Assembly: GCA_004348925.1 (NCBI GenBank)
Contig: RCMX01000006.1
Location: forward strand, 730,919 to 794,918
Reading direction: 5' to 3'
Origin: Actinomycetota bacterium
GTDB taxonomy: Bacteria > Actinomycetota > Coriobacteriia > Anaerosomatales > Anaerosomataceae
DNA: 64,000 bases
A program made the translations under genes and the position numbers. Positions 9,614-26,340 of this stretch are shown piece after piece. The notes under the pieces are model-generated. The model was not told the DNA's origin and did no database searches. It saw only the letters and a list, made by a program, of their open reading frames with translations. Positions within the stretch are counted from its first letter, which is position 1. Each line of letters opens with the position of its first letter.

Positions 9614-12100
9614 ATGAATAGCGAGGAAGACGCAAGAAACGGCGTGGACGCTTCCCCGGGCGACAACCACGAGAAGGTAGACCCCGCCGTTTCTGACGAG
9701 AACATTACCATCGGAACTATCGACGACGTTATGCGGCGGGGAAACCCGGGCAACCGGGCTCCCCGTCAGACTGCGGCTTGCCGCACCGCAGAACTCGCTG
9801 AGGCGGCGGGTCGCTATCACCGGCTCGGATTGAACGTCGTGACCGTTGGCGGCAGCAAGCGCCCGAACGTCCCGTCATGGGAGCAGTATCAGCGCACCCG
9901 CCAGTCAGGCGAGACTATCGGCGGGTTGCCCTACGAGACGGCATACGGCCTCGCCGTGGTCTGCGGACTGGTTTCAGGTGGCGTGTGTTGTCTCGACTAC
10001 GACAAGATTGAGGGCGACCGTGCGGCGTTCCTCTCGTGTCAGCTCGAGGCCCTCGGGCTGCCTCCCGTATACCCTTGGGCCGTCGAGACGCCCAGCGGTG
10101 GCCATATCTGGATTCGTCTTCTCGGAGACCTGAACGCGCTCGATGGTTGCGGGAAGCTCACTGGCCAGGTCCAGGGCTGCCATCACGTAGAGCTGCGTTT
10201 CGACGGCCACTACGCGATTGTGCCGCCCAGCCGTCGCCAGGACGGCGGCTCCTACCGGTTCCTGAGTGTCGATGGCATTCCGAGTGTCCGGCCGGCTGAA
10301 GTCGCGTTCGATCAGGTGCTCACTGCGGCGGAATGGAACGAGCCTAGGTTCACCGAGCGCCGTGCTCCTTCCAAGGGTGCACTGGCACTCGCGAGCAAGA
10401 CCGTGACTTCGGAGTACGTGGAGGCCGCGATTCAGGGTGAGCTCGACGAGGTCCGGTCGGCAGTGGAGGGCCACCGTAACGACACTGTGTTCAAGGCAGC
10501 CGCCGCTATCGGGTCCATGCTTCATCTTGGCATCGACGAAGGCGAGGTTGTTGGGCGCTTGCTTGTTGCCGGCCAGACGTCTGGTCTGCCTCATGAGGAG
10601 ATTGTCAGTGCTGTTCGCAGCGGTCTGAAGAAGGGCGCCGAGAATCCGCGTGGACTGGTGCTCAGCGAGCCGGAGGCGGCTCAGGTCGAGGTCTCCCGGC
10701 CCCCGTATCCGTTGCATGTACTGCCGCCCGCCGTCCGCGACTTCGTCGTCGAGGCGGCAGCCTGCGTTGGGTGTCCGCCCGACATGGTCGCCGTGCCGCT
10801 GCTTGCCTACGCGGGCGTGACGATCGGTCGGACGCGTTCGATTCAGATCAAGCCGCGCTACATCAAGCACCCCGCGTTCTGGTTCGCAGTAGTCGGCGCC
10901 CCGGGCTCGGGCAAGAGCCCCGCGGATGGGTTGGCACGTTCGTTCGTAGAAGCGCTGCAGGCCAAGGCACATGCCGATTGGCACACCGCGCATCAGGAGT
11001 GGCGCATCGAGCACGAGCTGTGGAAGCAGCGCATCAAGGGCAAGGGCAGCGGGAAGGCGTCTACCGGTGGCAAGCCCTTCCACGTCGACCCTGAACCCGA
11101 AGAGCCGGGCCTCGAGCACTACTACACCACCGATTCGACCATCGAGGCGCTCGCCCCCATGCTGAGTAGGTCAGCTGGCGTGGCCATCGCGCATGACGAG
11201 ATCGTCGGTTGGGTCAAGGGTATGGGTGCCTACAACGGCGCTTCGGCCCGCGACCGCGCCGAGTTCTTGTCATTGTGGGCCGAGCGGTCGCTCAAGTCCG
11301 ACCGCCGCGGGCGTGCCCCCATCCTCATCGAGAATCCCGTTGCGGTCATCATCGGTGGCGTACAGCCGGACGTTCTCTCGGACCTCGCCGGTGAGGCTGG
11401 AAAGCGCGATGGCTTCATCGACCGCTTCCTGTGGTCGTGGCCTGAGCAGCGTCCTGCGCCCTGGACTGAGAAGACGGTCAGCCCGTCGACCGCGGCTGCC
11501 GTGGAGGCCATCTTCAATCGGCTTCGCGCGACTAGCGGTGACGTTGCCCCCGTCACCCTCTCTGGCGACGCCAGGTCGTTTTGGCGGGATTGGTACAACG
11601 AGAACGGGGCGGTAGTCGAGGCCGAGCACGGCCTCATGGCCGGCATTCATGCCAAGGGCGATGTCCAGCTTGCACGTCTCGCACTGGTGCTGCATGTGCT
11701 GGCGCACGATGACCCCAATGCGTCCGCGGTCTCTGTAGACACCATGTTCGGCGCGGCGGAGCTCGTCGAATACCACTTCGCGCACGCAAGGGCAGTTGTG
11801 CAGCGGCTCGGGGTAGCGGTCAACACCGCGCACACCGGGCGCGGCTCCACGTTGCGGCAGCGCGTCATCGCTCGGCTTCAGAAGCACGGCGGCTGGATGT
11901 CTGCGACCGACATAGCCAAGGGCCTCGGAGGACACATCCCGGCGGCCGTGCGCGACCAGGAGCTCGCCCGGATGGAAGCCGAGGGGCACGTTCGGCGGCG
12001 GGTTCGCCCGTCTGGCGACCTTGGTGGTCGCCCGGCAGTTCAGTGGGCCCTCACGGGTAGCGCCGACGAATTCGACAACACTGGAAAGGTCGTGGCCTAG
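9614..12100 (+). CDS. primase-polymerase / DUF3987 helicase-like replication protein
   Basis: An 828-residue fusion. Residues about 55-230 form a bifunctional primase-polymerase (PF09250-like) domain: YHRLGLNVVTVG at the start, CLDYDK as the first acidic metal-binding motif, TPSGGHIW, and a VELRFDGHYAIVPPS core. The second half is a DUF3987-type ATPase with P-loop VVGAPGSGKSPADGL and the acidic AIAHDEIVGW motif. A winged-helix-like tail (GGWMSATDIAKGLGG) closes the protein. Such proteins start replication of satellites, plasmids and integrative elements, so the island can probably replicate after excision. It lies 12 nt behind the Xre gene, and its stop abuts the next ATG. Confidence 0.88.
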   Translation: MNSEEDARNGVDASPGDNHEKVDPAVSDENITIGTIDDVMRRGNPGNRAPRQTAACRTAELAEAAGRYHRLGLNVVTVGGSKRPNVPSWEQYQRTRQSGETIGGLPYETAYGLAVVCGLVSGGVCCLDYDKIEGDRAAFLSCQLEALGLPPVYPWAVETPSGGHIWIRLLGDLNALDGCGKLTGQVQGCHHVELRFDGHYAIVPPSRRQDGGSYRFLSVDGIPSVRPAEVAFDQVLTAAEWNEPRFTERRAPSKGALALASKTVTSEYVEAAIQGELDEVRSAVEGHRNDTVFKAAAAIGSMLHLGIDEGEVVGRLLVAGQTSGLPHEEIVSAVRSGLKKGAENPRGLVLSEPEAAQVEVSRPPYPLHVLPPAVRDFVVEAAACVGCPPDMVAVPLLAYAGVTIGRTRSIQIKPRYIKHPAFWFAVVGAPGSGKSPADGLARSFVEALQAKAHADWHTAHQEWRIEHELWKQRIKGKGSGKASTGGKPFHVDPEPEEPGLEHYYTTDSTIEALAPMLSRSAGVAIAHDEIVGWVKGMGAYNGASARDRAEFLSLWAERSLKSDRRGRAPILIENPVAVIIGGVQPDVLSDLAGEAGKRDGFIDRFLWSWPEQRPAPWTEKTVSPSTAAAVEAIFNRLRATSGDVAPVTLSGDARSFWRDWYNENGAVVEAEHGLMAGIHAKGDVQLARLALVLHVLAHDDPNASAVSVDTMFGAAELVEYHFAHARAVVQRLGVAVNTAHTGRGSTLRQRVIARLQKHGGWMSATDIAKGLGGHIPAAVRDQELARMEAEGHVRRRVRPSGDLGGRPAVQWALTGSADEFDNTGKVVA

Positions 12101-12307
12101 ATGAGCTGCCCCTTCAATCGAAGTGCCGTCATCAATGGCCTGCTGGCAGCTGGCAGGAGCGTCACCGACGCTGAGAAGGCGGCCGACGAGACCGCGCTGA
12201 CCGCGTGTCTCGAGGATCGCTGCCGCTGGTGGGGCGATGACACCCACCCCTGGTGCTGCATCCAGCTCATCCCCGCCGCCATCGAGAGCGCCTCGTACGG
12301 CGGATAG
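12101..12307 (+). CDS. small cysteine-rich protein
   Basis: A 68-residue protein whose ATG directly follows the stop of the replication protein. It has five cysteines (CPF near the N-terminus, CLEDRC, CC) plus a histidine, spaced irregularly, which could hold one zinc or an iron-sulphur site. The middle is helical (VTDAEKAADETALTACLED). I recognise no family. Its coupling to the primase-polymerase suggests an accessory replication role. Confidence 0.6.
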   Translation: MSCPFNRSAVINGLLAAGRSVTDAEKAADETALTACLEDRCRWWGDDTHPWCCIQLIPAAIESASYGG

Positions 12308-12336
12308 TCGGTTGCTGTCGTATGAAGTCTACGGAC

Positions 12337-12472
12337 GTACGTGCGAACTCAGGGACCGGGCTGCGCGAGCATAGTCTCGGGGTAGTAACGGCAACATAGA
12401 CGGCGCAGAAGGGCCCGGGCAACCGGGCTCTTCTTGTACCCGGGCGTTCGCAGTATCCACGTTCGTACGTAG
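12337..12472. repeat. imperfect inverted repeat in front of the short recombinase
   Basis: GTACGTGCGAAC at 12337-12348 and GTTCGTACGTAG at 12461-12472 are inverted with 10 of 12 positions matching. The right arm matches 13 of 14 bases (ACGTTCGTACGTAG against ACGTTCGTGCGTAG) with the right arm of the perfect inverted repeat at 20838-20879. The two sites flank the short recombinase, methylase and helicase genes. Function unknown; recombination site or regulator operator are both possible. Confidence 0.5.
12410..12431 (+). terminator. intrinsic terminator of the replication operon
   Basis: AGGGCCCGG (12410-12418) pairs with CCGGGCTCT (12423-12431), one G-T pair, loop GCAA, followed by TCTTGT. 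It lies between the arms of the larger inverted repeat in the 306-bp gap after the small cysteine-rich gene. Confidence 0.65.
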
Positions 12473-12613
12473 AAGCTCGTTTGGGGCTCTGGCGCGTTCA
12501 TCGATACCGCTTGCACCTATGTCCTGAAGTAGGCCGCTACGGGTTTGCTGTGGCGTACCGGGTCTCTCCCATTCCGGTACTGACAACGCTGTATTACCCG
12601 AGGAGTCCCTAAC

Positions 12614-13183
12614 ATGGCCCGTCCGAAGAAGCTGCCGAAGGTCCTGACCACCGAAGAGCAATGCGCCCTGGTCGCCCAGCCGAACCCGCGTTACACGTCG
12701 GGCCTACGAAACCGGTGTCTCATCAGGGTCGCGCTTGAGGCAGGCCTGCGCGCTGGCGAGCTGGTGGCCCTGAAGCCCGACCACCTCGATATGCTGACGT
12801 GCCGGCTCGTGGTCCGTGAAGGCAAGGGAGCGAAGGACCGGGTGCTGTGGATATCCGACAACCTACGCGACCTGGTCGGGCGCTGGCTCGAGCGCCGCCC
12901 GGTATCCGCCTGGCTGTTTCCTACTCGAGACGGTGGGCAGCTCGACACTAGGTATCTGCGGACAATGGTCAAGCACTACGCGGTGAAGGCCGGCGTCTCC
13001 GAATCCGAGCGCGTGACCCCCCACGTTCTTCGGCACACCTTCGCGACGGACCTATTGCGCGAGACGAAGAACATCATCCTCGTACAGAAGGCGCTCGGTC
13101 ATAGCGACGTGAGTACGACGATGATCTATACGCACGTCCAGGATGACGAGCCGAAGGCTGCGCTCCGCCGTCGAGAAACCTAA
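12614..13183 (+). CDS. short tyrosine recombinase (catalytic domain only)
   Basis: A 189-residue XerC/D-like protein holding only the catalytic domain, with R46 (AGLRAGE), H137 and R140 (HVLRH), H163 (LGH) and Y172 (MIYTHV). A basic N-terminus (ARPKKLPK) replaces the core-binding domain present in normal integrases of about 300 residues. The ATG follows GAGGAG (12599-12604) at a usable distance, so it is probably a real short protein rather than a fragment. It is a second recombinase in the island and lies directly before the methylase gene, with which it may move. Such short recombinases occur in other defence islands, but their sites are poorly known. Confidence 0.85.
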   Translation: MARPKKLPKVLTTEEQCALVAQPNPRYTSGLRNRCLIRVALEAGLRAGELVALKPDHLDMLTCRLVVREGKGAKDRVLWISDNLRDLVGRWLERRPVSAWLFPTRDGGQLDTRYLRTMVKHYAVKAGVSESERVTPHVLRHTFATDLLRETKNIILVQKALGHSDVSTTMIYTHVQDDEPKAALRRRET

Positions 13184-13285: not shown

Positions 13286-16200
13286 GTGCCTGACGACTCA
13301 CGGCTAGGTGGTACCGGCGAGTTCTTGAGCTCGTCAACTGCACGCTCGATCGATTGGCCCAAGCCCGCGGGATCACCCGTCGCCATCGACACGGTCGAAG
13401 TCCTGTTCGGCGAAGGCGACCGTCCGCTCGAAGTGGCCGTTGCTGCTTCTGTCTGTGCGCCGCGAGCAGATGACGTCCGCAAGCTCTGGAAACTGCGGGC
13501 GAACCGTGGTGCGCCGGTCCTGCTCGTCGTGCTGCACCCGGCCGGCGGCGATGTGCAGGCGAGTGTGATTGGCACTGAAGGCGATCCTTCGCCGATACAA
13601 GGACTCACGCGTGCGCGGGTCGAGCGCATTGCAGCAGCAGCCCTTGATGAACCGAACCGTCACCAGGCAATTCGCACCCTCGATCGTCTGTTGGGCACGG
13701 TTAGCCGAGAGGGACTCACCGCCGGCGTCATCAATGCGGGGCTCTTTGCTGCGCACGAACTCAGGGACGGTGTTCCGCGTCGATCGGACTGGGAGGCCGC
13801 GCGCGGGCGCTCGTTCCCGCTCCTGAACACGACGGGGCGGAATCTCCTTGACGCGCTCGGTTACCGCATTGAGCCCAAGGGAGCGAATCTGCTGGCTCTC
13901 TCCGACGCTGACACGCGGCAGGCGATCGCGGTCGTACTTGAAGAGGTGGAGAGCTTCGATCGCACTTCGTCGCGCTTCGGCGGCGTGTCGCCGGTGTCGC
14001 GGGCTCTGGCGCAAGCCCAGCATGAGCGTCTCCCATGGGTGATTGCCCTGCGCCGCAACCAAGTTCGCCTCTACCCGGCGGACCCGGATGTGGGCGTTGG
14101 ACGAAGGGGCCTGACTGAGACCTACATTGAGCTCGACTTGACGCTCCTGGACGACTCGGACGCGGGCTACCTCGCCCTGCTGTTTTCGCCCGAGGCGCTC
14201 GCCAAAGGCGGTAGCGTCGATGAGATCTTGCACAACTCGGGAGTCTACGCGACCGACCTTGGTGCACGCCTTAGAGGTCGTATCTACGAGGACGTGGTGC
14301 CCGACCTCGCGGTTGCAGTCGCCAGGCGGATGGGTGCTACGACTGAGGCGGAGTTGGGCTCTGCCTACCACCGCACACTGATCATCCTGTTCCGCTTGTT
14401 GTTTGTGGCGTACGCCGAGGACCGCGGGCTACTGCCATTCGAGCGAAACCCCCGTTACACACGTAACGCGCTCAAGACCTACGCCAAGGACTTCGCTGAG
14501 GACCCGGCTCAGGTGTTCTCGGCCGACTCGACGAGCATCTGGGAGGATCTGGTCCAAGTCTGGAACGCCATCGATTCCGGCGAGCCGCGCTGGGACGTGC
14601 CCGCCTACAATGGCGGGCTGTTCGCGACGGACGCGACACACCCGGATGGTGCCGCGGTCTCAGCGCTTGGGCTCAACAACCTCGAAATCGGTCCGGCACT
14701 CATGGCGATGCTCGTGGATGCCGACGCTCAAGCCGAGCGCGGACCGGTGGACTTTCGCTCGCTCTCGGTTCGCGAGTTTGGCACCATCTATGAGGGCCTA
14801 CTCGAGTCTAGCCTTTCCTTTGCTCGGGCCGACCTGACACTGGACCGCGAGCGGACCTACGTGCCCGCCAAGGATGGCGACACTGTGGTCGTCGAGGTTG
14901 GCGGCGTCTACTTCCACAACGCCTCGGGTCAGCGGAAGAGCACCGGCTCGTACTTCACTAAGTCGTTCGCGGTCGAGCATCTGCTCGATACGGCGCTTGA
15001 GCCCGCTATCGCTCAGCATCTTGCACAGGTGGAGGTGCTCATCGATGCTGACGAAACTCGTACGAAGGCCGCCGAGAAATTCTTCGACTTTCGCGTGGCT
15101 GACCTCGCGATGGGTTCCGGACACTTCCTCGTCGCGGCCATCGACCGGATTGAAGCGCGGTTCTCTGCGTTCATCTCTGAGAATCCGCTCCCCGCGGTCG
15201 CAGATGAGCTGGCACGCCTGGAATCTGTAGCGCGCGAGGCGCTCGGTGAGGAGCAAGGCCTGCTCGCTGAGATCGAGCCGTCATTGCTCCTACGCCGACA
15301 GATCGCTCGCAGATGCATCTACGGACTCGACATCAATCTCATCGCGGTCGAGCTCGCTAGACTGGCGATCTGGATTCACACGTTTGTGCCCGGGCTGCCG
15401 ATGTCGTCGCTGGATCACGGGCTCGTTCACGCGAACTCCCTCACGGGCATGGGCACCATCGAAGAAACGCTGGCCGCGCTCGACCCGCAGGCGCAACCCG
15501 GGCAGTTCTCGCTCTTCTCCGCGTCCGTCCAAGACGCCCTTGAGCGCTCCCGCGACACACTGCAGAAGGTCGCCAGAGCATCAGAGGCGACCAAGCAAGA
15601 GGTTCGCGACGCGGATCAGGAGCGGCTTCGCGCCTTGGCTGACGCCGAGGACGCGCGGCTACTCATGGATGCGGCCGTTGCTGCTCGATTGGGGCTGGTA
15701 CCCATCCCAGTTGGCCCTGAAGAAGCCATCGAATCCATCTCCGCCGACACCGATGCCGCAATCGGCGCCAGGGACACGCTTGCGGTGCTCAGGCCCGCCC
15801 ACTTCCCATTTCTCTTTCCCGAGGTGTTCCTTCGCGAGGAGCCGGGATTCGACGTGATCCTTGGGAATCCACCGTGGGAGGAACTCGTCTACGAGGAGAT
15901 CAAGTTCTGGGTGCTAAGGAACCCCGGGCTTCGTTCCCTTGCGGCCGCGGAACGGGATGCCCGCATCGAGCAGCTGCGCAAGACCCAGCCAGACGACTAC
16001 GCCGAGATGTTGTCTGAACAAGCGCAGGCGAATGCCCTCCGTGGGGCACTTGCCCGGGGCCCGTTCCCTGGGCTTGAGAGCGGGCATGCAGATCTCTACA
16101 AGGCCTTCTGTTGGCGGTTCCTCCATCTACTGTCGCGGAAGGGCGTCGCGGGCGTCGTGCTGCCCCGCGGGGCGCTCTCGGCAGCAGGCTCATCACTCTG

Positions 16201-17362
16201 GCGGCACGAAGTGCTGCACGAAGGAACGTTCGGGAACATCGCATTCCTCACCAACAACGGAGGATGGGTGTTCGAGGACGTTCACCCCCAATACACCGTG
16301 GCGCTGACCGCCTTCGCTCGCACGTCGGAGGACCGATCCGTGAGTGTGTACGGGCCGTATTCATCGCGGGGGGCCTACTCTGTCGCACAAGAGGAGCCGT
16401 CGCTGTACGTTGCGGCCGACGTACTTGCCTCTTGGACTGACACGGCCGCAGTGCCCGCACTACCGGATTCCGGTTCCGGAGACATATTCCTGCGTATGCG
16501 AGAAGCACCCCGTCTGGACCATGATGATCCTGCAAGCTGGCGCTTTGTCCCTCTCCAGGGGGATTTCAACCAGACCACCGACAAGGCTCTGTGGATTCAC
16601 GACGAAGACAGTCGAGGAGACCTCACTGTCTACAAGGGCGGTTCCTTTGACCTGTGGCAACCGGACCTCGGACGTCCGTTCGCGAGTGCCACGTCGGAAG
16701 ATGTGCGTGCAGCGCTGATGTCTCGACGTGGACGTCAGGTGAGGCGGGCGGACTCCCCGTTCTTCGGCTTGCCCACTTCGGACTGGAAGGACCTGCCGGT
16801 CTACTCTCCGAGGATTGCATTCCGTGACGTTTCAAGGGCAACGGACACCCGGACTGTGCGTGCTGCCCTCGTGCCACCCAAGACGGTGCTGACCAACAAG
16901 GCCCCCTACCTGGTGCGGCTGAGGGGAAGCGAGAAGGACGAGGCATACCTGTTGGGCGTCATGTGCAGCATCCCGTTCGACTGGTACGCGCGGACCTTGG
17001 TCGAGATCTCTCTGAACTTCCACATCCTGAACGCGTTGCCGGTGCCCAGGCCGAGCGCCGGCGATTCCCTGTACGAGCGAGTTGCCACGATTGCGGGGCG
17101 TTTGTCATGCGTCGATAGGCGATACGAAGCTTGGGCATCGAAAGTCGGCGTTCCCGTGGGCGGGGTTTCTGAGGAGTCAAAGCCTCAACTGCTCGCCGAG
17201 TTGGACGCCTGCGTGGCTCTCCTCTATGGGCTCGCCATGCCACAGGTTGAGCACTTGGTGCGCACATTCCATCCGACCTGGGACTGCGCCGAACGGCTTG
17301 AAGGAATCACCGCATTCTACGACTTGTGGGCGCGAACGACCGGTCCAACAGGTGGTGCGTGA
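13286..17362 (+). CDS. Eco57I-type N6-adenine DNA methyltransferase (restriction-like)
   Basis: About 1,358 residues. SAM-binding motif I is ADLAMGSGHFLVAAID (around 604) and the catalytic motif IV is GNPPWEE (around 860), giving a gamma-class adenine methylase of the Eco57I/type IIG layout. The N-terminal 250 residues include a beta-strand-rich region starting DTVEVLFGEGDRPLEV, with no convincing nuclease motif. The C-terminal 350 residues (after about 1000) resemble the target-recognition part of type IIG enzymes (FHILNALPVPRP near 1245). GTG at 13286 is preferred over a TTG six codons earlier because AAGGGGGAG precedes it. The stop overlaps the ATG of the helicase (TGATG). It should mark host DNA for the associated helicase/nuclease pair; size and type recall drmMI of class 1 DISARM or PglX of BREX. 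Confidence 0.85.
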   Translation: MPDDSRLGGTGEFLSSSTARSIDWPKPAGSPVAIDTVEVLFGEGDRPLEVAVAASVCAPRADDVRKLWKLRANRGAPVLLVVLHPAGGDVQASVIGTEGDPSPIQGLTRARVERIAAAALDEPNRHQAIRTLDRLLGTVSREGLTAGVINAGLFAAHELRDGVPRRSDWEAARGRSFPLLNTTGRNLLDALGYRIEPKGANLLALSDADTRQAIAVVLEEVESFDRTSSRFGGVSPVSRALAQAQHERLPWVIALRRNQVRLYPADPDVGVGRRGLTETYIELDLTLLDDSDAGYLALLFSPEALAKGGSVDEILHNSGVYATDLGARLRGRIYEDVVPDLAVAVARRMGATTEAELGSAYHRTLIILFRLLFVAYAEDRGLLPFERNPRYTRNALKTYAKDFAEDPAQVFSADSTSIWEDLVQVWNAIDSGEPRWDVPAYNGGLFATDATHPDGAAVSALGLNNLEIGPALMAMLVDADAQAERGPVDFRSLSVREFGTIYEGLLESSLSFARADLTLDRERTYVPAKDGDTVVVEVGGVYFHNASGQRKSTGSYFTKSFAVEHLLDTALEPAIAQHLAQVEVLIDADETRTKAAEKFFDFRVADLAMGSGHFLVAAIDRIEARFSAFISENPLPAVADELARLESVAREALGEEQGLLAEIEPSLLLRRQIARRCIYGLDINLIAVELARLAIWIHTFVPGLPMSSLDHGLVHANSLTGMGTIEETLAALDPQAQPGQFSLFSASVQDALERSRDTLQKVARASEATKQEVRDADQERLRALADAEDARLLMDAAVAARLGLVPIPVGPEEAIESISADTDAAIGARDTLAVLRPAHFPFLFPEVFLREEPGFDVILGNPPWEELVYEEIKFWVLRNPGLRSLAAAERDARIEQLRKTQPDDYAEMLSEQAQANALRGALARGPFPGLESGHADLYKAFCWRFLHLLSRKGVAGVVLPRGALSAAGSSLWRHEVLHEGTFGNIAFLTNNGGWVFEDVHPQYTVALTAFARTSEDRSVSVYGPYSSRGAYSVAQEEPSLYVAADVLASWTDTAAVPALPDSGSGDIFLRMREAPRLDHDDPASWRFVPLQGDFNQTTDKALWIHDEDSRGDLTVYKGGSFDLWQPDLGRPFASATSEDVRAALMSRRGRQVRRADSPFFGLPTSDWKDLPVYSPRIAFRDVSRATDTRTVRAALVPPKTVLTNKAPYLVRLRGSEKDEAYLLGVMCSIPFDWYARTLVEISLNFHILNALPVPRPSAGDSLYERVATIAGRLSCVDRRYEAWASKVGVPVGGVSEESKPQLLAELDACVALLYGLAMPQVEHLVRTFHPTWDCAERLEGITAFYDLWARTTGPTGGA

Positions 17363-20300
17363 TGAGCGATCGAACGCGCAACGGACAGCCCAGGTTCGCG
17401 ACCAATCGTCCCGCGGATGACGCTCACGCTGCGGAGCGAGTTGCCGACGCGGTGAAGGCGCTCGTCGGCGAGGCATGCTTGCACCTTGTGGAGCCGCCGG
17501 CGCTCGCGATCTCGACTGCCTACTTCAACCCAAGCGGGTTCTCGCTGGTGGCTCGGGCGCTCCGAGGGGCCGGCCCCACGCGTCTCCTGCTCGGAGCTGA
17601 GCCGACGCTTGAGGCGACTCGGGTGAAGCGATTGGCAACGCGTCGGGCGCGCGCGAGGATGCACCCCGCGCTGCAATCGGCTTTGGAAGGCCACGTCCGG
17701 GCGATTGAAGCCGATCGCAACTTGCTGGGCTTCGACGCGCCGTCTGACGGGGCCGCACGCGACCTTGTCGACTGGCTTAGGTCAACGGACTCCGAAGGAG
17801 TCCCTCGAGTGGAGGTCCGTCGGTTCACCAACGGCTTCATGCATGGCAAGTGCTTCCTCATTGACGCGCCCGTGGGCAAGGGAGTCCTGGCGGGCTCTTC
17901 CAATTTCACCCATGCAGGGCTTTCGGAGAACCGCGAGCTCAATCTCGGCCAATACGAGCCCGACACAGTTGAGATGGTTCTCGACTGGTTCAACGAGCTG
18001 TGGGATGAGTCAGAACCTTACGACCTCGCTGCGTTGTACGAGGCCCGCTGGGAGCCCCACGACACGCGGCTCATCTTCTACAAGATGCTGTGGGCGCTGT
18101 ATGGCGCCGATATTCAGCGCGAGATGGAGGAACGCGACCTGTCCGACCTCGGGTTGACCGACTTCCAGCGAGACGGAGCGTGGCGGGCGAAGCGGATCCT
18201 GGCGGCGCTCTCTGGCGTCGTCGTGGCCGACGAAGTGGGCCTCGGCAAGACCTTCATCGCCGCCGAGATCATCCACGAGGCGGCAATCAAGAATCGGCAG
18301 AAGGTGCTCGTCGTCGTTCCGGCAGCGTTGCGGAAGACGTGGAAGGACTTTCTGGCGCTGCCCAAGATCAACCTGCCGGCAGATGTGGTCTCCTACGATG
18401 AGCTGGTCTCCGACCAGGAGATCGCCGGCACCGCTCGCGCGCGTCTTCAAGACCTAGACGCGTACGCCGTGGTGATCGTGGACGAGGCACACGCGCTTCG
18501 GAACGCATCTACGGCGCGCGCGGACGCGATGCGCGCCCTGCTCGAAGGCGAGTCGCCGAAGAAGCTCGTTCTCATGACGGCGACTCCGGTGAACAACTCC
18601 CTCTCGGACATATACACGCTCATTAGCTACTTCGTCACGAACGATGCGGCCTTCGCGAACGCCGGCATCCTCTCACTGAAGGGCTACTTCGACGCCGCCC
18701 AGGCCACCAACCCCGACGACCTGTCGCCTGAGCACCTGTTTGACGTCATGGATAAGGTCGCGGTGCGCAGGACGCGGGAGTTCATCAAGGAGCACTACCA
18801 AGGTGAGCGCATCACGATGGCGGACGGCGTGTCGCGCGAGATCCGCTTCCCCAAGCCGCGAGTGCGACGAGTTGACTACAGCCTGGAGGGCGTACTGCCC
18901 GGCTTCTTTGCGGACCTGGCGTGCGCTTTGGGCGCGAAGTCCGATTCGCTCGACACGGTCATTCTCGATGAGCCCGGCGAGGTTCTCACGTTCGCGCGCT
19001 ATGTGCCCTCACGGTTCCTTAAGCGCTCGGTCGTGCAGACACGGCTCGAAATTGAGGAGCTCGGAGGCGAGGACTGGCAGGGCGAGCAGTACGAGCGCCA
19101 GAACGCTGGCCTGCTGCGTTCGATGCTACTCAAACGATTCGAGTCGAGCGGGTACGCGTTCCAGCGGACCGTCGACACCATGATCCGTTCGCACGAGATC
19201 TTCTTGGCCGCGCTGGATGAGGGCTGGGTGATCACCGGTGACGCACTGCGCCAGTGGATGGCCACTGACAGCGACGAGATGGACGAGTTCATTGGTGGTC
19301 TCGACGACGAGACTGCGGATCGGCGCGTCGGGCCGGTGTCTGACTACGATCTCGTTGCTCTGCGATCTGCGGTCGAGGCGGACGCACAGCGCCTTGCAGA
19401 GCTGCGGGATGCGGCGAAGGCGGCTGATGGTGCCTCGGACCCGAAGGTCGAGGCGCTGATAGAGCACCTCGCGGCCATCGCAGATGAGGCGGAACGTGAC
19501 GGGGCAACAGAGCACCAGCGCCGCGACAACCGCAAGGTGCTCGTGTTCAGCTACTTCGCTGACACAGTCGAGTATCTTCACGGTGTCCTGCAACTCGCCA
19601 TTCAGCACGACGACCGCCTAGCAGCCTATCGCGGTCGCATTGCCACCGCCACGGGTTCGGACAAGGCCCATCAAGCCACCGTCATCGCGGGTTTCGCCCC
19701 GCGCACCGCCGGAGGAGAGAACGACGATGACCTGTTCGACCTCGTCATTACCACCGACGTGCTCGCGGAAGGCGTGAACCTACAGCAGGCGCGACATCTC
19801 ATCAACTACGACCTACCGTGGAACCCGATGCGACTGGTTCAGCGCTATGGCCGTATCGACCGCATCGGCTCCGACCATTCCGAGGTCTTCATCCGCGTGT
19901 TCTTCCCGGCGAGCGAGCTCGATGGCATGCTTGCGCTTGAGGAACGACTTCAGCGCAAGATCAAGCGGGCGGCGGCTGCGGTTGGGGTTCGTGAGGTGCT
20001 GCCAGGGGTTAAGGAGGTTCAGGTCAACCTCACCGAGTCGCGCGACGAGATCGCCCGGCTCCAGGCCGAGGACGCCTCCCTCTTCGAGACTGGTGGAGCC
20101 TCGGCTCTCTCCGGTGAGGCGTATCGCCGCCGACTCATGGACTTCATCAAGCAGACCGCCAACCGGGAGGCGCTCGACGCGCTGCCATGGGGGTCTGGGG
20201 CAGCATTCGCCAAACGAGGCATGGACGAGCCAGCAATCGTCTTCTGCGCAAATATCGCCGGCTCGGCTGAGCCATGGTTCCGTTACGTCGCTCTCGACGA

Positions 20301-20829
20301 TGCGTACGGTGTTCAGCGCTACTTCGATGCAGAGACTGGTGTGTCGCGGGTGCGCATGTCATCCGAGACGCTGACCTGTCTGAGTCGTGCAGACACGGGC
20401 GATGCGCTGCCGTCCCCCGAGAACGTCATCACGGACGAAATCTACGCTGCTGCTTTCGCCGCGTGGGAGCACGCGCAGGGCGACATAGTTGAGAGGTGGA
20501 ACTACCTCACCGATCCGGCAAATCTGCGGCCCGTCATCCCCAAGGCCATGCGAGATGCGGTGGCAGTGGTTCGGGCGCACGGTGCGCATCTGGAGAGGGC
20601 TGATCGCCTGGTCGAGATGCTGGAGGCGCCGCACAGCCCGCGCATCCAGCGACTCGTGCGTGCCATCGTCGACGATGACGGCGCGAGCGGTCGTTCGAAG
20701 GTCGATGCCCTGGATGAACTAGCCAGGCGCATGAACTTGCAGCCGTACGTGGAGCCGGAGCCCCGCACACCCATCACGGAGGATGATGTGCACGTGGTGG
20801 CATGGTGCGCGGTGCTGCCGGAGGCGTGA
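17362..20829 (+). CDS. PLD-nuclease / SNF2-type helicase fusion
   Basis: A 1,155-residue protein. An N-terminal phospholipase-D-like domain has the HKD-type motif HGKCFLID near residue 160 followed by GSSNFTHAGL (GSxN) about 18 residues on. A superfamily 2 helicase follows: motif I DEVGLGKTF (about 290), motif II VDEAH (about 373), motif III LMTATPVNN (about 412), and motifs V/VI AEGVNLQQARHLINYDLPWN and QRYGRIDRIG (about 800-835). One HKD copy implies that the nuclease works as a dimer. The gene overlaps the methylase stop by 1 nt. In DISARM the SNF2 helicase (drmD) and PLD protein (drmC) are separate; here they are fused. It probably tracks along unmethylated or invading DNA and cuts it. 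Confidence 0.85.
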   Translation: MSDRTRNGQPRFATNRPADDAHAAERVADAVKALVGEACLHLVEPPALAISTAYFNPSGFSLVARALRGAGPTRLLLGAEPTLEATRVKRLATRRARARMHPALQSALEGHVRAIEADRNLLGFDAPSDGAARDLVDWLRSTDSEGVPRVEVRRFTNGFMHGKCFLIDAPVGKGVLAGSSNFTHAGLSENRELNLGQYEPDTVEMVLDWFNELWDESEPYDLAALYEARWEPHDTRLIFYKMLWALYGADIQREMEERDLSDLGLTDFQRDGAWRAKRILAALSGVVVADEVGLGKTFIAAEIIHEAAIKNRQKVLVVVPAALRKTWKDFLALPKINLPADVVSYDELVSDQEIAGTARARLQDLDAYAVVIVDEAHALRNASTARADAMRALLEGESPKKLVLMTATPVNNSLSDIYTLISYFVTNDAAFANAGILSLKGYFDAAQATNPDDLSPEHLFDVMDKVAVRRTREFIKEHYQGERITMADGVSREIRFPKPRVRRVDYSLEGVLPGFFADLACALGAKSDSLDTVILDEPGEVLTFARYVPSRFLKRSVVQTRLEIEELGGEDWQGEQYERQNAGLLRSMLLKRFESSGYAFQRTVDTMIRSHEIFLAALDEGWVITGDALRQWMATDSDEMDEFIGGLDDETADRRVGPVSDYDLVALRSAVEADAQRLAELRDAAKAADGASDPKVEALIEHLAAIADEAERDGATEHQRRDNRKVLVFSYFADTVEYLHGVLQLAIQHDDRLAAYRGRIATATGSDKAHQATVIAGFAPRTAGGENDDDLFDLVITTDVLAEGVNLQQARHLINYDLPWNPMRLVQRYGRIDRIGSDHSEVFIRVFFPASELDGMLALEERLQRKIKRAAAAVGVREVLPGVKEVQVNLTESRDEIARLQAEDASLFETGGASALSGEAYRRRLMDFIKQTANREALDALPWGSGAAFAKRGMDEPAIVFCANIAGSAEPWFRYVALDDAYGVQRYFDAETGVSRVRMSSETLTCLSRADTGDALPSPENVITDEIYAAAFAAWEHAQGDIVERWNYLTDPANLRPVIPKAMRDAVAVVRAHGAHLERADRLVEMLEAPHSPRIQRLVRAIVDDDGASGRSKVDALDELARRMNLQPYVEPEPRTPITEDDVHVVAWCAVLPEA

Positions 20830-20837
20830 AGGTGCTG

Positions 20838-20879
20838 CTACGCACGAACGGGACAACCGGTTTCGACGTTCGTGCGTAG
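20838..20879. repeat. perfect inverted repeat between helicase and endonuclease genes
   Basis: CTACGCACGAAC (20838-20849) and GTTCGTGCGTAG (20868-20879) are perfect complements, extended inward by one G-C pair, with a 16-nt interior. It starts 8 bp after the helicase stop. It has no T-run and is not an obvious terminator. Its arms resemble those at 12337-12472, so it may be a protein-binding or recombination site. Confidence 0.6.
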
Positions 20880-20993
20880 TACCGAATTGGGGGAGAGCCG
20901 GAACTCATCCACGCAATTGCGCTGGTCGCCCGGCCAGACCGGTGTGGAGGCGAGACGAACGGAATCGATACACGTCGGTGATGGGGGAGCGAG

Positions 20994-22670
20994 ATGGCGT
21001 ATCAGTTGAGACCACACGGACCCAAGTCAGTCGCCATGGTGCGCGCCGGCGAAGAAGCGCATCTGTACGAGTGGTGTCGCGATAACGGCTTCATCACCAT
21101 CGGCTGGTTCGGGCACCCCCCAGCATCGATGGAGGGCTGGTCGCTCGGGCGGCTGGAATCCGAGTTCCGAGCGAAGTACCCATACGACGACGAGCACGGA
21201 GAGCCGGGCGCGTATCGGACCAAGAGCTCGCAGACCCGTGGCCTCACGAACGTGGCTGACTTTCTTTTCAACATCCCGATCGGCCGCCGAGTGATGATCG
21301 CCTCGCCCGCCGGTGGCGCGACCGTGCTCCTAGGTACCGTCGTTGGCGGCTATGAGTACCACGACGACTGGGACATCTCCCAGCGGGCCGAACCCTACTG
21401 CCACTTCAAAGCTGTCGAGTGGCTCGGCGAATTCAAACGTGCGGATCTCCTAGAGGCCGCCGCTTTGCCTTGGACGGACCAGCAGACTGTCTGGTGGGTT
21501 GAGGATCTCGCGGCAATCCGCGACCTTGAGGTGGCGGCCGGTGGCGAGAACGGCGAAGCGCCTGGCGCCGCGGGGGGCTTCGAGGCCGAGAAGGCCGGGG
21601 CGTCCGCCTCGTCGCCGACGTCAGTAGAGGCGCTTGCCGTTCTGACCCCGCTGACCGACAAGGCCGAGGTTGAAGACGCTTATGCCCAGTTCGTTGGGCG
21701 GCTTACGTCGGGGGTAGACCCCATCCGAAAGGGGCTCGGGTGGCCTGGGGGATGGGGCGAGTTCGACGTCTACTGGCACTCGGCCGAACAGCTCTGGTGC
21801 GTCCTCGAGCCGGAGTTCGCGGGTAGCCGCTACTGGTGCTGCTTCGGACCCGATGACCCCGCCACTCCGAACGACCTCAGCATCGGCTGCGAGATCAACT
21901 TCGCCTACGAGGGGGTCAATCGTCGCATCGCCGGTGCCTTCCTGCGGGATGCCGAAGGCCGAGTGTACGTCGCGCACAGCGGCAAGGTCGGCGGCGGACA
22001 CGAAGGCGTCGGCAAGAGCGCATTCCTGAAGTACATCGACTCACCGGTAAGGGTGGCCGTGGCGTGGCCTGACGGGCAGACGACCGAAATGCTCATCATC
22101 GGGATGCTGGACGCGGACGGCTTCGTGGGCAATGTGGCGACCTTCGTCTCGGAGGTCGCGTCGTTCAAGAGGGACGTGCGCGATGGCACGACAACAGAAA
22201 GAGACCTGCCGCAGGCCCCCGGCGAGGACCATGATGCGGATCTCGACGACTACTTCCCGGAGTCGCTTCTCGGCACCGCGAGCTTTGAGCAGAAGACACG
22301 CAAGATAGCGATACGACTTGCGCACGGACCGGTGGTGCATGCACTGCGAGACGCGGTTGAGGCCGCCGGGCTGGTTGCGAAGAAGAACAACCGGATTGAC
22401 CTTGCTGCTGTGACGTCGGCGGGTGAGCTGATTACCGTCTTTGAGGTGAAGACCGGTGTCGACTGGGGGTCGGTCTACGGGGCCATCGGGCAGTTGATGT
22501 ACTACGGCAAGACCGGAGCACACAACCCAGAGCGCCTTGTGGCGGTACTTCCCGACGGGGGACCGGCTGACCTGGACGCACGTCTTGGGGCAATCGGACT
22601 CGGGGTGGTTCGGTACGAGTACGCAGACGGGAAGCCGGTGTTTACGGGGCTGGATGCGGTCCTGGGCTAA
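20994..22670 (+). CDS. PUA-like / PD-(D/E)XK restriction endonuclease-like protein
   Basis: A 558-residue protein behind a clean GGGGGAG site. The first 160 residues (AYQLRPHGP, then ITIGWFG, and RRVMIASPAGGATVLLGTVVGGYEY) look like a PUA/EVE-type domain of the kind that reads modified bases. A charged Ala/Gly-rich linker (about 180-205) leads to a middle domain. The C-terminus holds a PD-(D/E)XK core: IDLAA near 468, EVK at about 484-486 after a hydrophobic strand, and QLMYYG at about 500. That combination fits Mrr/McrBC-like enzymes that sense modified DNA. It follows the helicase gene by 164 bp containing the inverted repeat, so it may belong to the same system or be a separate cassette. 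Confidence 0.75.
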   Translation: MAYQLRPHGPKSVAMVRAGEEAHLYEWCRDNGFITIGWFGHPPASMEGWSLGRLESEFRAKYPYDDEHGEPGAYRTKSSQTRGLTNVADFLFNIPIGRRVMIASPAGGATVLLGTVVGGYEYHDDWDISQRAEPYCHFKAVEWLGEFKRADLLEAAALPWTDQQTVWWVEDLAAIRDLEVAAGGENGEAPGAAGGFEAEKAGASASSPTSVEALAVLTPLTDKAEVEDAYAQFVGRLTSGVDPIRKGLGWPGGWGEFDVYWHSAEQLWCVLEPEFAGSRYWCCFGPDDPATPNDLSIGCEINFAYEGVNRRIAGAFLRDAEGRVYVAHSGKVGGGHEGVGKSAFLKYIDSPVRVAVAWPDGQTTEMLIIGMLDADGFVGNVATFVSEVASFKRDVRDGTTTERDLPQAPGEDHDADLDDYFPESLLGTASFEQKTRKIAIRLAHGPVVHALRDAVEAAGLVAKKNNRIDLAAVTSAGELITVFEVKTGVDWGSVYGAIGQLMYYGKTGAHNPERLVAVLPDGGPADLDARLGAIGLGVVRYEYADGKPVFTGLDAVLG

Positions 22671-22700: not shown

Positions 22701-23600
22701 CTAGTGGGCGCTCAGCAGCACAGCGCGAGACGGCGCGAACAGAACGAAGATGTGATACGTGTTCGTAAAGACCTCGATCCGCATCGCACGGATTTCGCCG
22801 TTCAGGTCCGGCCATGGAATCCGCGTGCGTATCGGGTCCTTGTACGAACCGGACTCCAGCAGGGTGCTGACCGCCGCGACGTGGGGCACGACTGCTTCGA
22901 ATGGCCCGGAGTCAAACCACTGAGGCCAGTTGTGAGGGTCGTGGTATCGCGAGCGCCACAAGACAGAGCTGAACGCCTCCCTTCGCTCGAAACTCAGGGG
23001 GGCAATGCACGAGGGCTGACGATTCAAAACGACTCCCGCGACGGGCTTGGCGTTTGTCTCGACCAGCCGTCGGAAGGTCGAGTGAATTGTTGCGCCGAAG
23101 GTCGCGGACAGCTCGAGCACCGACTTGGCGCGCAGCCGGCGGGACGCGGCCTGTTCCTGTAGCAGGGTCCCTTGGAAGAGAAGCTCTGCAGCCACGTGGT
23201 TCGCTTGAAGTTCGAAAAGGGCGCTCGTCTCGGGGGACAGGGTGAAGTAGTCATCCGCGTAGGCCAAGTCCGATTGGCACGGGATGATGTGATGCCCGAC
23301 CTCATGTAGGCGCTTGAACGCACCGTTTGATGCGTGTTCAGGACGGATGTGCACTTCCTTCTCGCGTCTGTCCAACAACGCCAGAACCTTGCCGGAAATG
23401 CCTCGCATCACATCCATGAGGTGGCTCGGGGCCTGGTCGATACACTCGTCGGACAGAAGCGACTCGGCGGGTTCGCTTAGACCAGCGGCCGTGATGAGAC
23501 GAGCGATCGGCGTGGGAAGCTCGTCTTGGACATCAGCGAGCAGGAGCAGCTTCTTGGCTGCCCCTGCAAGCTCCGGATCATTTCTGACCTCATCCAGCAA
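22701..23600 (-). CDS. ImmA/IrrE-type zinc metalloprotease (CapP-like)
   Basis: A 299-residue protein with the zincin motif H99-E-V-G-H103 and a third ligand at E129 in ELQANHVAAELL, the pattern of the ImmA/IrrE family. A C-terminal domain of about 110 residues (from VVLNRQPSC) could be a GAF-like sensor, as in CapP. It begins with TTG directly after the stop of the upstream Xre gene, so the two are coupled. In CapH/CapP pairs the protease cleaves the repressor when activated by DNA-damage signals, switching on a nearby defence operon. Here the pair is divergent from the ubiquitin-like operon, so the same logic is likely. A phage-repressor-inactivating ImmA role is the alternative. Confidence 0.82.
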   Translation of the reverse strand: MLDEVRNDPELAGAAKKLLLLADVQDELPTPIARLITAAGLSEPAESLLSDECIDQAPSHLMDVMRGISGKVLALLDRREKEVHIRPEHASNGAFKRLHEVGHHIIPCQSDLAYADDYFTLSPETSALFELQANHVAAELLFQGTLLQEQAASRRLRAKSVLELSATFGATIHSTFRRLVETNAKPVAGVVLNRQPSCIAPLSFERREAFSSVLWRSRYHDPHNWPQWFDSGPFEAVVPHVAAVSTLLESGSYKDPIRTRIPWPDLNGEIRAMRIEVFTNTYHIFVLFAPSRAVLLSAH

Positions 23601-23966
23601 TCAGTCGCCTCCCGACTTCTTGCGGCTTCGATGGAACGCGAGGTACTCGGTGAGTGCTGCGACCTCCTCGTCGGTCAGCTCCTCAGAGAGCAGCGCGTGC
23701 GCCAGCGGCCCCCGCGAAATGGGCTCGCTGCTGGTCGGCTTGTCACGGGGTACTACGTAGCCCGCGAGCTTCATTAGCTCCACGTAGGGGACTTCGAGTG
23801 CCGAGGCAAGTGCGTGCAGCTTGTTCGGAGATGGACTCGCGATTTCGTCGCGCTCGAGTCGTTGCAGGTAGGTCGGGGACATGCCCGCTGCGTCGCTCAC
23901 CACCTTCAGAGATGCGCCGCGCAGGTGGCGGATGCGGGCGAGCTCACTTCCCAGCGATTTGGGCAA
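23601..23966 (-). CDS. Xre-family repressor (CapH-like)
   Basis: A 121-residue protein with an N-terminal HTH_3 domain (LARIRHLRGASLKVVSDAAGMSPTYLQRLERDE, in two motifs) and a C-terminal helical extension rich in Glu (LSEELTDEEVAALTEYLAFH), which could be the dimerisation and cleavage region. The TTG start at 23966 has a near-perfect AAGGAGG site 6 nt upstream. Its stop is immediately followed by the protease start. It probably binds the repeated sites at 23982-24043 and represses both its own gene and the ubiquitin-like operon that diverges from it. Confidence 0.85.
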   Translation of the reverse strand: MPKSLGSELARIRHLRGASLKVVSDAAGMSPTYLQRLERDEIASPSPNKLHALASALEVPYVELMKLAGYVVPRDKPTSSEPISRGPLAHALLSEELTDEEVAALTEYLAFHRSRKKSGGD

Positions 23967-24126: not shown

Positions 24127-24375
24127 GTGAACGCAAGAGACGAGCGCCACGAGTTCGAGATCTCCATCGACGGGGAGGAGTACACCCTCACCCAGAAGGA
24201 GATGCCCGCGACGGAGATTCTGTCGCTTGCGGGCAAGTCCTACGATGCCTTCTATCTTGTCGAGATGAGGGCGGATCACACCCGCGCGGAATACAAGGAT
24301 GGCAGCGCGGTGGTCAAGCTGCACAACGGGCTGAAGTTCATCACGGTCCACGTCGGTCCGACGCCGGTGTCGTGA
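24127..24375 (+). CDS. ubiquitin-like modifier (single multi-ubiquitin-type domain)
   Basis: An 82-residue beta-grasp protein matching the pattern of the multi-ubiquitin family (PF14452-like): a first strand pair HEFEISIDGEEYTLTQKEM, a helix ATEILSLAGK, then AFYLVEMRAD and a closing LKFITV. Only one domain is present. There is no C-terminal di-glycine; the chain ends HVGPTPVS, so conjugation would need trimming after G77 or a different chemistry. The GTG start has AGGAG 10 nt upstream. It is the first gene of a four-gene operon, its stop overlapping the next start, and probably serves as the protein tag attached by the E1/E2 encoded downstream. Confidence 0.75.
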   Translation: MNARDERHEFEISIDGEEYTLTQKEMPATEILSLAGKSYDAFYLVEMRADHTRAEYKDGSAVVKLHNGLKFITVHVGPTPVS

Positions 24376-24764
24376 CAGCCATGTCAACCGTGGACCTCAT
24401 GAACCAGCTCAGGGAACTCGGCTACGAGCCGGAGTTGGGTCCAGAGGGATTCGTCGCATTCGACTACACAATCCTGATTGGGCCGCTTTCGGGCCGGCAG
24501 ATTCGGCTGGGGTTTCAGAACCCCGACCAGTTTCCCCTGAACCCGCCCGGCGGACCGTGTGTATCCCCGCGTCTGCTACCACTCAAGACAGGCAACACAC
24601 CACCGCTGGAAGGCATCCACGCCATCTCGCCCGAAATCGATCCCGGCGGTGTATGGGAGTACTGGAGCAGGCCGTTCCAGGGTTGGGAGTCGACTTCGCG
24701 GAAGGCTACCGACTACTTGGCCCACGTGAACGCTCTGTTCGATGGACTTCCCGCCGATGTTTAG
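24372..24764 (+). CDS. E2-like ubiquitin-conjugating enzyme (prokaryotic family E)
   Basis: A 130-residue protein of the Prok-E2_E kind. It has an alpha/beta start (VDLMNQLRELGYEPELG), a strand pair (FVAFDYTILIGP, QIRLGFQ), the flap PDQFPLNPPGGP, and a single cysteine, C63 in PCVSPRLL, which is the only possible thioester nucleophile. A C-terminal helix with W and R residues closes the fold. The GTG start at 24372 overlaps the upstream stop (GTGA); an ATG three codons later is also possible. It overlaps the E1 gene at its 3' end. It would take the activated modifier from the E1 and pass it to a target. Confidence 0.78.
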   Translation: MTAMSTVDLMNQLRELGYEPELGPEGFVAFDYTILIGPLSGRQIRLGFQNPDQFPLNPPGGPCVSPRLLPLKTGNTPPLEGIHAISPEIDPGGVWEYWSRPFQGWESTSRKATDYLAHVNALFDGLPADV

Positions 24765-26340
24765 CGTCGCGTTCACGGAGGCGATCCACGCGCAGTTTGT
24801 CGAACACTTGATCAGGAGTGATCGACAGGAGGATCTCTGCTTCGCGTTGTACTGGCCCAGCCAGGGCAGAGATCGGCAGACCGCTCTCATCGGCGCAATC
24901 GTGCTCCCGGGATCGGGTGACAGGGCTGTTCACGGCAACGCGAGCTTCACCTCCGGCTACTTCCTGCGGGCTCTGGAGATGGCCGAGCAGCGCGGAGCGG
25001 GGCTGGCGCTTGCGCACAGTCATCCTCTGGGCAGCGGCTGGCAGGGGATGAGCACTGACGACGTGTCGGCCGAGCTGTCACACGCCGCTCAAGCTCTTGC
25101 GGTCACGGGCCTCCCCCTAGTCGGTGTCACTCTCGGCGGTCACGGCAACTGGAGCTGTCGCGAGTGGGTTCGCGTGAGTCGGGGCGAGTATCAACGTGTA
25201 GATGGCGAGTCAGTCCGAGTGGTCGGGGAGCGCCTCGCCCTAGCTCACAATCCCTCTCTGCGCCCGGTTCCAGCGCTTGATGGCCGGCTTCATCGCACCG
25301 TGTCGGCCTGGGGCCCCGAGACGCAGGCGGGACTGGGTCGTTTGCGGGTTGGGGTAATCGGCGTGGGGAGTGTCGGCTCTCTGGTCGCCGAAAGCCTTGC
25401 CCGTACGGGCATCGGCGAAATCCGCCTGATTGACTTCGACACCGTTGAGCTGGGCAATCTCGATCGGCTGCTGCACGCCTCGCGCGTGGACGTTGCTCTC
25501 GCGCGATCCAAGGTTGAAGTGCTGGCCGAGGCCCTCCGAAGGTCCGCGACGTCTCGGCCGTTCCGCGCGGAGCCGCTGGAGCTGAGCATCTGCGAGGAGG
25601 ACGGCTTTCGCGCGGCGCTCGATTGCGACGTCTTGTTCTGTTGCGTGGATAGACCTTGGCCGCGCTTCGTGCTCAACGTGATTGCCTACGCACACTTGAT
25701 CCCAGTCGTCGACGGCGGCGTTCACGTCGAGGCTCGCAAGGACCCTGTGCGGCTGGTTTCGGCCGACTGGAGAGCGTACGTGGCTGGCCCGGGTCGCCGG
25801 TGCCTCGAGTGCGCCGGGCAGTACTCGCCAGGTCTCGTAGACACGGACCGACGGGGTGATTTCGACAACCCACACTACATTGCGGCGCTCGCCGACGACC
25901 ACCCAGCGCGGCATGGAGAGAACGTCTTCGCATTCAGCGCTGCGTGCGCATCCTTGGAGGTCTTGCAGGCGCTCATCATGCTTGTCGCGCCCTGCGGGGT
26001 CGGGGATATCGGAGGACAGCACTATCACCTGCTGCCTGGCACAGTCGATATCGAGGGACCCGCGTGCAGACCAACGTGTCCGTTCTCCGAGAGCCTGCTC
26101 GGGCTAGGCGACAGCTACCCCGCACACTGCACGGGCGAGCATGAAGTGGCTCAAGCTCAGATTGCGAGGCGCCAGACGGCACGGCGCACCGCGCGCGTTC
26201 GTCTTGGTCGTGCCCTCGTTGGGCTGTTGCGTCGACTCGGGGCTGTTGTCGAGAAATGGCTGCTCGGCGCGGATCAGGACCTAATAGAGCGACCCGTGGA
26301 GGGAGGTGATACACATGGCACGTCAACACGTCGGACGTGA
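24742..26340 (+). CDS. JAB peptidase / ThiF-type E1 fusion
   Basis: A 532-residue fusion of the two activities that bracket a ubiquitin cycle. Residues 1-165 form a JAB/MPN isopeptidase with the JAMM signature H92-S-H94-P followed by S104 and D107. Residues 200-450 form an E1/ThiF adenylating domain with nucleotide loop GVGSVG (207-212), acidic DFDTVE (231-236) and N-L-D-R (239-242). CLEC (354-357) and CRPTC (442-446) form the structural zinc site. A basic C-terminal tail of about 80 residues follows. The JAB part could trim the modifier tail or remove it from targets; the E1 part would activate it with ATP. A start at 24757 is possible. Fused JAB-E1 proteins are known from multi-ubiquitin operons. 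Confidence 0.88.
   Translation: MDFPPMFSVAFTEAIHAQFVEHLIRSDRQEDLCFALYWPSQGRDRQTALIGAIVLPGSGDRAVHGNASFTSGYFLRALEMAEQRGAGLALAHSHPLGSGWQGMSTDDVSAELSHAAQALAVTGLPLVGVTLGGHGNWSCREWVRVSRGEYQRVDGESVRVVGERLALAHNPSLRPVPALDGRLHRTVSAWGPETQAGLGRLRVGVIGVGSVGSLVAESLARTGIGEIRLIDFDTVELGNLDRLLHASRVDVALARSKVEVLAEALRRSATSRPFRAEPLELSICEEDGFRAALDCDVLFCCVDRPWPRFVLNVIAYAHLIPVVDGGVHVEARKDPVRLVSADWRAYVAGPGRRCLECAGQYSPGLVDTDRRGDFDNPHYIAALADDHPARHGENVFAFSAACASLEVLQALIMLVAPCGVGDIGGQHYHLLPGTVDIEGPACRPTCPFSESLLGLGDSYPAHCTGEHEVAQAQIARRQTARRTARVRLGRALVGLLRRLGAVVEKWLLGADQDLIERPVEGGDTHGTSTRRT

Follow-up and report, generated by a model that had tools for sequence, protein, structure and literature searches.

The first two of three consecutive genes in a 64,000-nucleotide (nt) stretch of the genome of an Actinomycetota bacterium (Anaerosomataceae; GenBank GCA_004348925.1, contig RCMX01000006.1, positions 730,919 to 794,918), hereafter the window, form a conserved unit that is small and mobile and that consists of a large Eco57I-type (NPPW) DNA methyltransferase (MTase) and an HKD(PLD)-SNF2 helicase. 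We lean, if only slightly, towards seeing in this pair a distinct class of mobile, two-gene, ATP-dependent restriction-modification systems spread across Actinomycetota and haloarchaea, in which an MTase derived from a Type IIG enzyme with a dead nuclease would be the sole and exchangeable specificity subunit of an HKD-SNF2 translocase-nuclease lacking a recognition domain of its own. The pair is probably an antivirus system, a defence role suggested by the protein families and the genomic context. The initial annotation, made from the sequence alone, had described all three genes as one restriction-like system. The restriction-like character is supported, and the conserved two-gene unit is a finding beyond that annotation.

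The host genome (G000, the source of the window) is actinobacterial, 2.25 Mb in size and 99% complete. All three genes were confirmed on the plus strand of the window (Table 1), and all three frames have the high third-position GC content typical of genes; chance frames were excluded for the MTase and the helicase because homologues span the full length of both proteins. The MTase start, GTG at 13286, is preceded by GGGGGAG, with TTG at 13268 as a possible alternative. The 1-nt overlap first read from the sequence was seen again, since the stop codon of the MTase gene and the start codon of the helicase gene share one base (TGATG). Scans for promoters and terminators gave no more matches than in shuffled sequence.

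The sequence upstream of the helicase could be read in 19 core loci, and in all 19 an Eco57I-type MTase gene or its remains preceded the HKD-SNF2 gene. The two frames overlap by 1 to 8 nt in most core loci when alternative starts are allowed for, while in L041, L096 and L112 (loci and genomes are cited by our own numbers) they are spaced by about 0.9 to 1.2 kb, with a trypsin-like gene between them in L112. Core pairs occur in Actinomycetota, in haloarchaea, on plasmids and on viral contigs. Full-length helicase relatives of at least 38% identity were found on six plasmids, from Rhodococcus erythropolis (plasmid pCRE138 of strain R138), Mycobacterium gallinarum, Euzebya pacifica, Paenarthrobacter aurescens, Halalkalicoccus and Halorubrum lacusprofundi, and the same six carry adjacent MTase relatives over at least 91% of the length. 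Searches of 396 genomes of the phylum Actinomycetota and 69 of the order were made; the core helicase was present at 39% identity or more in about 10 of the 396, as counted from the search table, and further pairs were located in G062 (two copies), G058, G051, G109, G363, G306, G342, G259, G230 and others. Single-sequence queries with the helicase or gene 3 found no relatives among viral contigs, but searches with alignments of the pair did, on three IMG/VR contigs. Comparison of the MTase and helicase distance matrices gave a correlation of r = 0.907 over 15 pairs, a value reached by 0 of 5000 permutations, and of r = 0.80 when only the 12 core pairs were compared.

The second gene encodes PLD and helicase in one chain, as had been proposed: PLDc_2, SNF2-rel_dom and Helicase_C of Pfam were each matched above cut-off in the protein of 1155 amino acids (aa), and its PADLOC match is C3a139 'HKD+Snf2' (167 bits). 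Residues H161, K163, N181 and E192 are kept in all 18 aligned helicases, and the Walker A motif, the DEAH-like box and motif VI are likewise conserved across them. No Z1, B3 or DUF3427 domain was found in the helicase by a Pfam scan at E 0.01.

The MTase matched the Pfam family Eco57I with 46 bits, above the cut-off, and its catalytic motifs (motif I and NPPW) are intact. In an alignment of 15 MTases that includes the distant L105, NPPW is present in 14 and replaced by NPPY in L105. Enzymes of the Eco57I/NPPW type methylate adenine, which makes adenine the probable base here. The PADLOC model PDLC03620 REase_MTase_IIG matched the protein over its full length with 869 bits. However, the PD and ExK residues of the restriction-endonuclease-like region are lost in every core MTase, the distant L105 retaining PDY...EGK, and the Type IIG label is therefore probably misleading for this enzyme. 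The predicted structure of the MTase N-terminus had a predicted local distance difference test score (pLDDT) of 73, and a Foldseek search with this model gave no match under 0.001. In structural comparison of the same model, residues 1-126 reached a Z of about 7 with Hjc resolvases and residues 180-314 a Z of 7.0 with the N-terminus of BpuSI; both values are within the chance range and were not used as proof.

Comparison of closely related pairs showed that the C-terminal half of the MTase changes far more than the rest of the system. Between L038 and L040 identity was 86% in the MTase body and 79% in the helicase, against 24% in the C-half; the corresponding values were 81%, 75% and 24% between the window and L040, and 71%, 70% and 23% between the haloarchaeal plasmids L056 and L057. 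In these three comparisons no 100-residue window of the helicase drops in the way the C-half does, the lowest windows having 68%, 61% and 55% identity, respectively. When overall divergence was removed, helicase windows did not co-vary with the C-half (partial r between -0.15 and 0.13). The C-half thus appears to behave as an exchanged target recognition domain (TRD). A helicase-nuclease that reads DNA should partly change with the MTase, and none of its regions does so; the C-half would therefore most likely serve as the TRD for both modification and restriction, as in Type I, Type ISP and BREX systems.

Taken as a whole, the pair is probably an ATP-dependent restriction-modification system of two subunits: the MTase, which would carry its one exchangeable recognition domain, and a recruited translocase-nuclease. 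The MTase presumably descended from a Type IIG-like enzyme that lost its PD-(D/E)XK nuclease. The MTase would methylate, probably at adenine, a target read by its C-terminal half, the only TRD of the system, and on unmethylated foreign DNA it would mark the site for its HKD-SNF2 partner. The latter, devoid of a recognition domain, would be loaded at or beside the MTase, would translocate along DNA with ATP and would cut both strands as a dimer, like other single-HKD nucleases. We infer translocation and dimeric cutting from SauUSI, an HKD-helicase dimer that translocates and cuts (PMC7913695), and from other HKD enzymes. The system would in effect be a Type ISP or Type I enzyme divided between two chains and using HKD in place of PD-(D/E)XK. 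Type ISP enzymes use a single TRD. Precedents for shared specificity are Type ISP (PMC7049714) and BREX PglX (PMC11842806). The genes downstream of the pair would be interchangeable accessories, and gene 3 would most likely recognise phage DNA whose modifications let it past the first line of defence. In L096, a single case from a draft genome, the MTase gene is broken and its catalytic part is gone while the frame and motifs of the helicase are intact; this pattern fits the scheme, because the nuclease is expected to be inert without the MTase.

This reading is supported by the gene pair, the motifs, the lost nuclease residues, the exchange of the C-half, the lack of co-variation and the variable downstream slot, and several points weigh against it. 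The putative TRD role of the C-half comes from the pattern of exchange, and although its frames are continuous, the low identity may conceal alignment errors. The missing specificity of the helicase could also reflect a sensing of DNA without any sequence, and L096 may be just a recently dead locus. The window and several of its relatives also come from draft genomes.

The third gene, which the initial annotation counted as a member of the system, starts 164 bp after the helicase stop on the same strand and was absent from every other locus carrying the pair; the phylum and order genomes gave only distant or partial matches to it. Such a failure to co-occur is one of the outcomes that the initial annotation had itself named as refuting its proposal of a three-gene system. 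It has no Pfam family match. Of the two domains first assigned to it, the nuclease core stands, the ExK and the following Q being invariant among aligned relatives, while the PUA-like N-terminus is suggested by a motif resemblance and by a weak match to the N-terminal part of PADLOC PDC-S02 proteins (23 bits, limited to residues 13-170, the full-length match failing). An AlphaFold model of gene 3 alone (pLDDT 37) was too poor for a fold search, and sequence searches of the PDB with gene 3 profiles gave nothing useful. Bosea, Hymenobacter, Azospirillum and Polaromonas have the C-terminal half as a protein by itself, and ExK and Q are invariant in those aligned. L104 (11203-16236, minus strand), from the same genus, has a PUA-like domain joined to an HNH nuclease; this fusion comes directly after a different MTase, which is Type IIG-like and has a possibly active IEVK motif. 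In L039 a PUA-like domain is fused to Mrr_cat, and the fusion follows a distant copy of the pair at a spacing of 13 bp. The halves of gene 3 have separate histories.

Other genes occupy the same position elsewhere: an endonuclease annotated as phosphorothioated-DNA-binding, with a 4-nt overlap, in Euzebya, HEPN_Swt1-DUF3320 proteins in L041 and L055, and a CoiA-type nuclease behind the distant pair of L105; the slot is empty in several loci. It looks like a site for interchangeable back-up effectors, which are also a theme in BREX (PMC12839542), and gene 3 is best taken for an accessory nuclease that is probably modification-dependent. The inverted repeat between the helicase and gene 3 is a candidate for a unit boundary or a transcript hairpin. 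Behind the pair of L038, on the opposite strand (8675-10629, minus), we noted a small protein that looks ASCH-like by eye and matches no Pfam family, and another with a PIN-like beginning, an arrangement that recalls PIN-GNAT-EVE/ASCH modules.

Table 1. Coordinates of the genes, motifs and repeat described in the text (window positions)
Feature	Position	Strand	Length, residues or remark
Eco57I-type (NPPW) DNA MTase, first subunit of the two-gene unit	13286..17362	+	1358 aa
Degenerate restriction-endonuclease-like region of the MTase	13823..14185	+	residues ~180-300; 15-sequence alignment
S-adenosylmethionine-binding motif I region of the MTase, DLAMGSGHFL	15101..15130	+	residues 606-615
Catalytic motif NPPW of the MTase	15866..15877	+	residues 861-864
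Exchangeable C-terminal half of the MTase, putative TRD	15941..17245	+	residues ~886-1320
HKD(PLD)-SNF2 fusion protein, putative translocase-nuclease subunit	17362..20829	+	1155 aa
HKD nuclease motif region, HGK...GSSN...N.E	17803..18009	+	residues 148-216
Walker A of the SNF2 ATPase, DEVGLGKT	18229..18252	+	residues 290-297
Perfect inverted repeat, 13-bp arms CTACGCACGAACG, 16-nt loop	20838..20879	+	gap between helicase gene and gene 3
Gene 3, accessory outside the core: PUA-like N-terminus and PD-(D/E)XK nuclease	20994..22670	+	558 aa
N-terminal PUA-like, PDC-S02-type domain of gene 3	20994..21527	+	residues 1-178
PD-(D/E)XK nuclease core of gene 3, D..EVK..Q	22311..22508	+	residues ~440-505

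We weighed four other explanations. An epigenetic defence of the DISARM or BREX kind, in which the MTase marks self and the HKD-helicase attacks by structure or missing marks and not at the MTase target, is unlikely. The helicase may be related to DrmD and shows neither a recognition domain nor a co-varying region, and DrmAB of DISARM acts without sequence recognition (PMC9142583); however, the carriers of this mode, the MZB proteins of DISARM and ARMADA and the DUF499 protein of BR, are absent from the genome. It is quite improbable that the helicase recognises its own target like R.CglI or SauUSI, with the MTase as an independent Type II-style protector. No helicase region changes alongside the MTase C-half, none of the Z1, B3 and DUF3427 domains was found, and L096 has an intact helicase next to its broken MTase, although CglI-type systems do join an MTase, a PLD nuclease and an ATPase, at times fused (PMC4267653), and in SauUSI a single HKD-helicase chain includes a TRD (PMC7913695).

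We consider it very improbable that all three genes make up one system, with gene 3 providing either the recognition of modified DNA or the cutting activity. That gene 3 follows the pair in the same direction, and that another PUA-like nuclease (PDC-S02, Mrr_cat) lies close behind the distant pair of L039, would agree with it, but gene 3 is missing from the other pairs, its gap from the helicase holds a hairpin, the slot has HEPN_Swt1 proteins, the phosphorothioated-DNA-binding endonuclease or nothing in other loci, and in the same genus a different MTase is followed by an HNH nuclease that bears a PUA-like domain. Hardly credible is a self-sufficient Type IIG enzyme with the helicase as an unrelated neighbour: the full-length PDLC03620 match is what would favour it, against the loss of the PD and ExK residues in the core family and against a helicase that adjoins in every readable locus, often overlapping, and diverges in step with the MTase.

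On one side of the pair is an integrase/primase region, and on the other are CapP/HTH, E1-E2 and AbiD genes. Positions 8089-13183 of the window hold an integrase (minus strand), a Prim-Pol/DUF3987 primase-helicase (plus strand) and a tyrosine recombinase with only a catalytic domain, and because of these three genes the island resembles an integrative element of the satellite type that carries defence genes as cargo. The sequence CTACGNACGAACG occurs at 10937, 12329 (a copy with one mismatch), 12460, 20838 and 20867; only four exact copies exist in the 2.25-Mb genome, all within 10 kb here. The copies bracket the tyrosine recombinase (12614-13183) and the MTase-helicase pair, leaving gene 3 outside, and are possible recombination or replication sites; the 19 bp at 10934-10952 recur in direct orientation, with a single mismatch, at 12457-12475. 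Downstream, a CapP-like metallopeptidase (40 bits) and a helix-turn-helix (HTH) protein (22701-23966, minus strand), a regulator pair of the CapHP type, are divergent from an E1-E2 operon, and in M. gallinarum (L053) an HTH gene and a hypothetical gene stand on the minus strand behind the pair. Further defence genes, a ThiF/E1-E2 gene (24742-26340) and an AbiD/Abi_2 gene (28133-29017), lie in 24127-29017.

More distant HKD helicases (25-30% identical) lie in other operons, likewise without DUF499. In L043 (2264-9254, minus strand) and L044 (5613-12723, minus strand), which belong to a second, distant MTase/HKD-SNF2 clade, the two genes again overlap, so the two-gene plan may extend beyond the family studied here. 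In L045 and L046 an HKD-SNF2 helicase stands beside genes that appear, from their size and N-terminus only, to be Type III mod and res.

If the two-subunit reading is true, a single swappable domain determines the target of a generic cutter, and exchanging that domain could alter the specificity. This would also suggest a path from single-chain Type IIG enzymes to the multi-subunit ATP-dependent systems (BREX, BR, DISARM) that use related MTase and SNF2 families. The PADLOC label Type IIG is probably wrong for this MTase family.

The earlier view that the genes match no named system agrees with PADLOC, which covers the two proteins solely as separate entries ('Type IIG' and 'HKD+Snf2'). We found no descriptive paper for the PADLOC names C3a139 and PDC-S02; the latter, a candidate system, resembles gene 3 in the N-terminal domain before the nuclease and differs in the nuclease half. 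DISARM class 1 has a large adenine MTase and an SNF2 helicase to which the two proteins may correspond: PADLOC DrmMI and DrmD matched the MTase and the helicase with 202 and 137 bits, in each case behind another family, and the score for NCBIfam DrmD was 168 bits against a cut-off of 610. Here, however, the PLD is fused to the helicase and DrmB is absent: the lack of drmB was confirmed for the whole genome, which has no DrmB/YprA-type gene and no match to MZB/DUF1998 (PF09369), a search whose control was positive in 8 of 14 known genomes. DISARM and ARMADA are therefore excluded, and the suggestion of a compact DISARM relative falls. ARMADA (PMC12458937) shares a RapA/BrxHII-like SNF2 helicase and a PglX-like MTase with the pair, but its YprA-type helicase with the MZB region is missing here and the SNF2 protein here bears an HKD nuclease.

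BR Type-2/Hma (PMC12839542) has the same fusion of an HKD-endoDNase to the N-terminus of a Swi2/Snf2 helicase and an N6-MTase partner, but is built on a DUF499 ATPase. DUF499 (PF04465) gave no match in the host genome or in 11 other pair carriers, which excludes BR/Hma here; in two carriers that were positive it is located elsewhere in the genome or record, and no MZB or DUF499 match lies near any of the other pairs by position or contig. DUF3780, present in 98% of BR Type-2 systems (PMC12839542), gave no match, but its positive control was also silent. CglI, NgoAVII and BceSIV (PMC4267653, PMC5737866) combine an MTase with a PLD nuclease and an ATPase, the latter two fused in some homologues, but have a 5mC MTase, a Z1 helicase and a B3 recognition domain, none of which was found here. 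SauUSI (PMC7913695) unites an HKD nuclease and an SF2 translocase in one chain, but is a Type IV enzyme with its own TRD and no MTase partner, whereas an MTase stands in all readable loci here. Type IIG enzymes differ in the active PD-(D/E)XK of the MTase chain, which is missing here, the fold itself being matched weakly. Searches of the open-access literature gave no description of a two-gene MTase/HKD-SNF2 system, whose parts are catalogued singly, and led only to BR, BREX, ARMADA, CglI and Type ISP. The system would be a variant of ATP-dependent restriction-modification that brings no new principle. Type ISP enzymes (LlaGI/LlaBIII; PMC7049714) likewise comprise an ATP-dependent translocase, a nuclease and an N6-MTase, and would share with the pair the use of one TRD for methylation and cutting, but they are single chains with an Mrr-like PD-(D/E)XK nuclease, whereas the system described here is divided between two chains, and its nuclease, of the HKD kind, is part of the SNF2 subunit.

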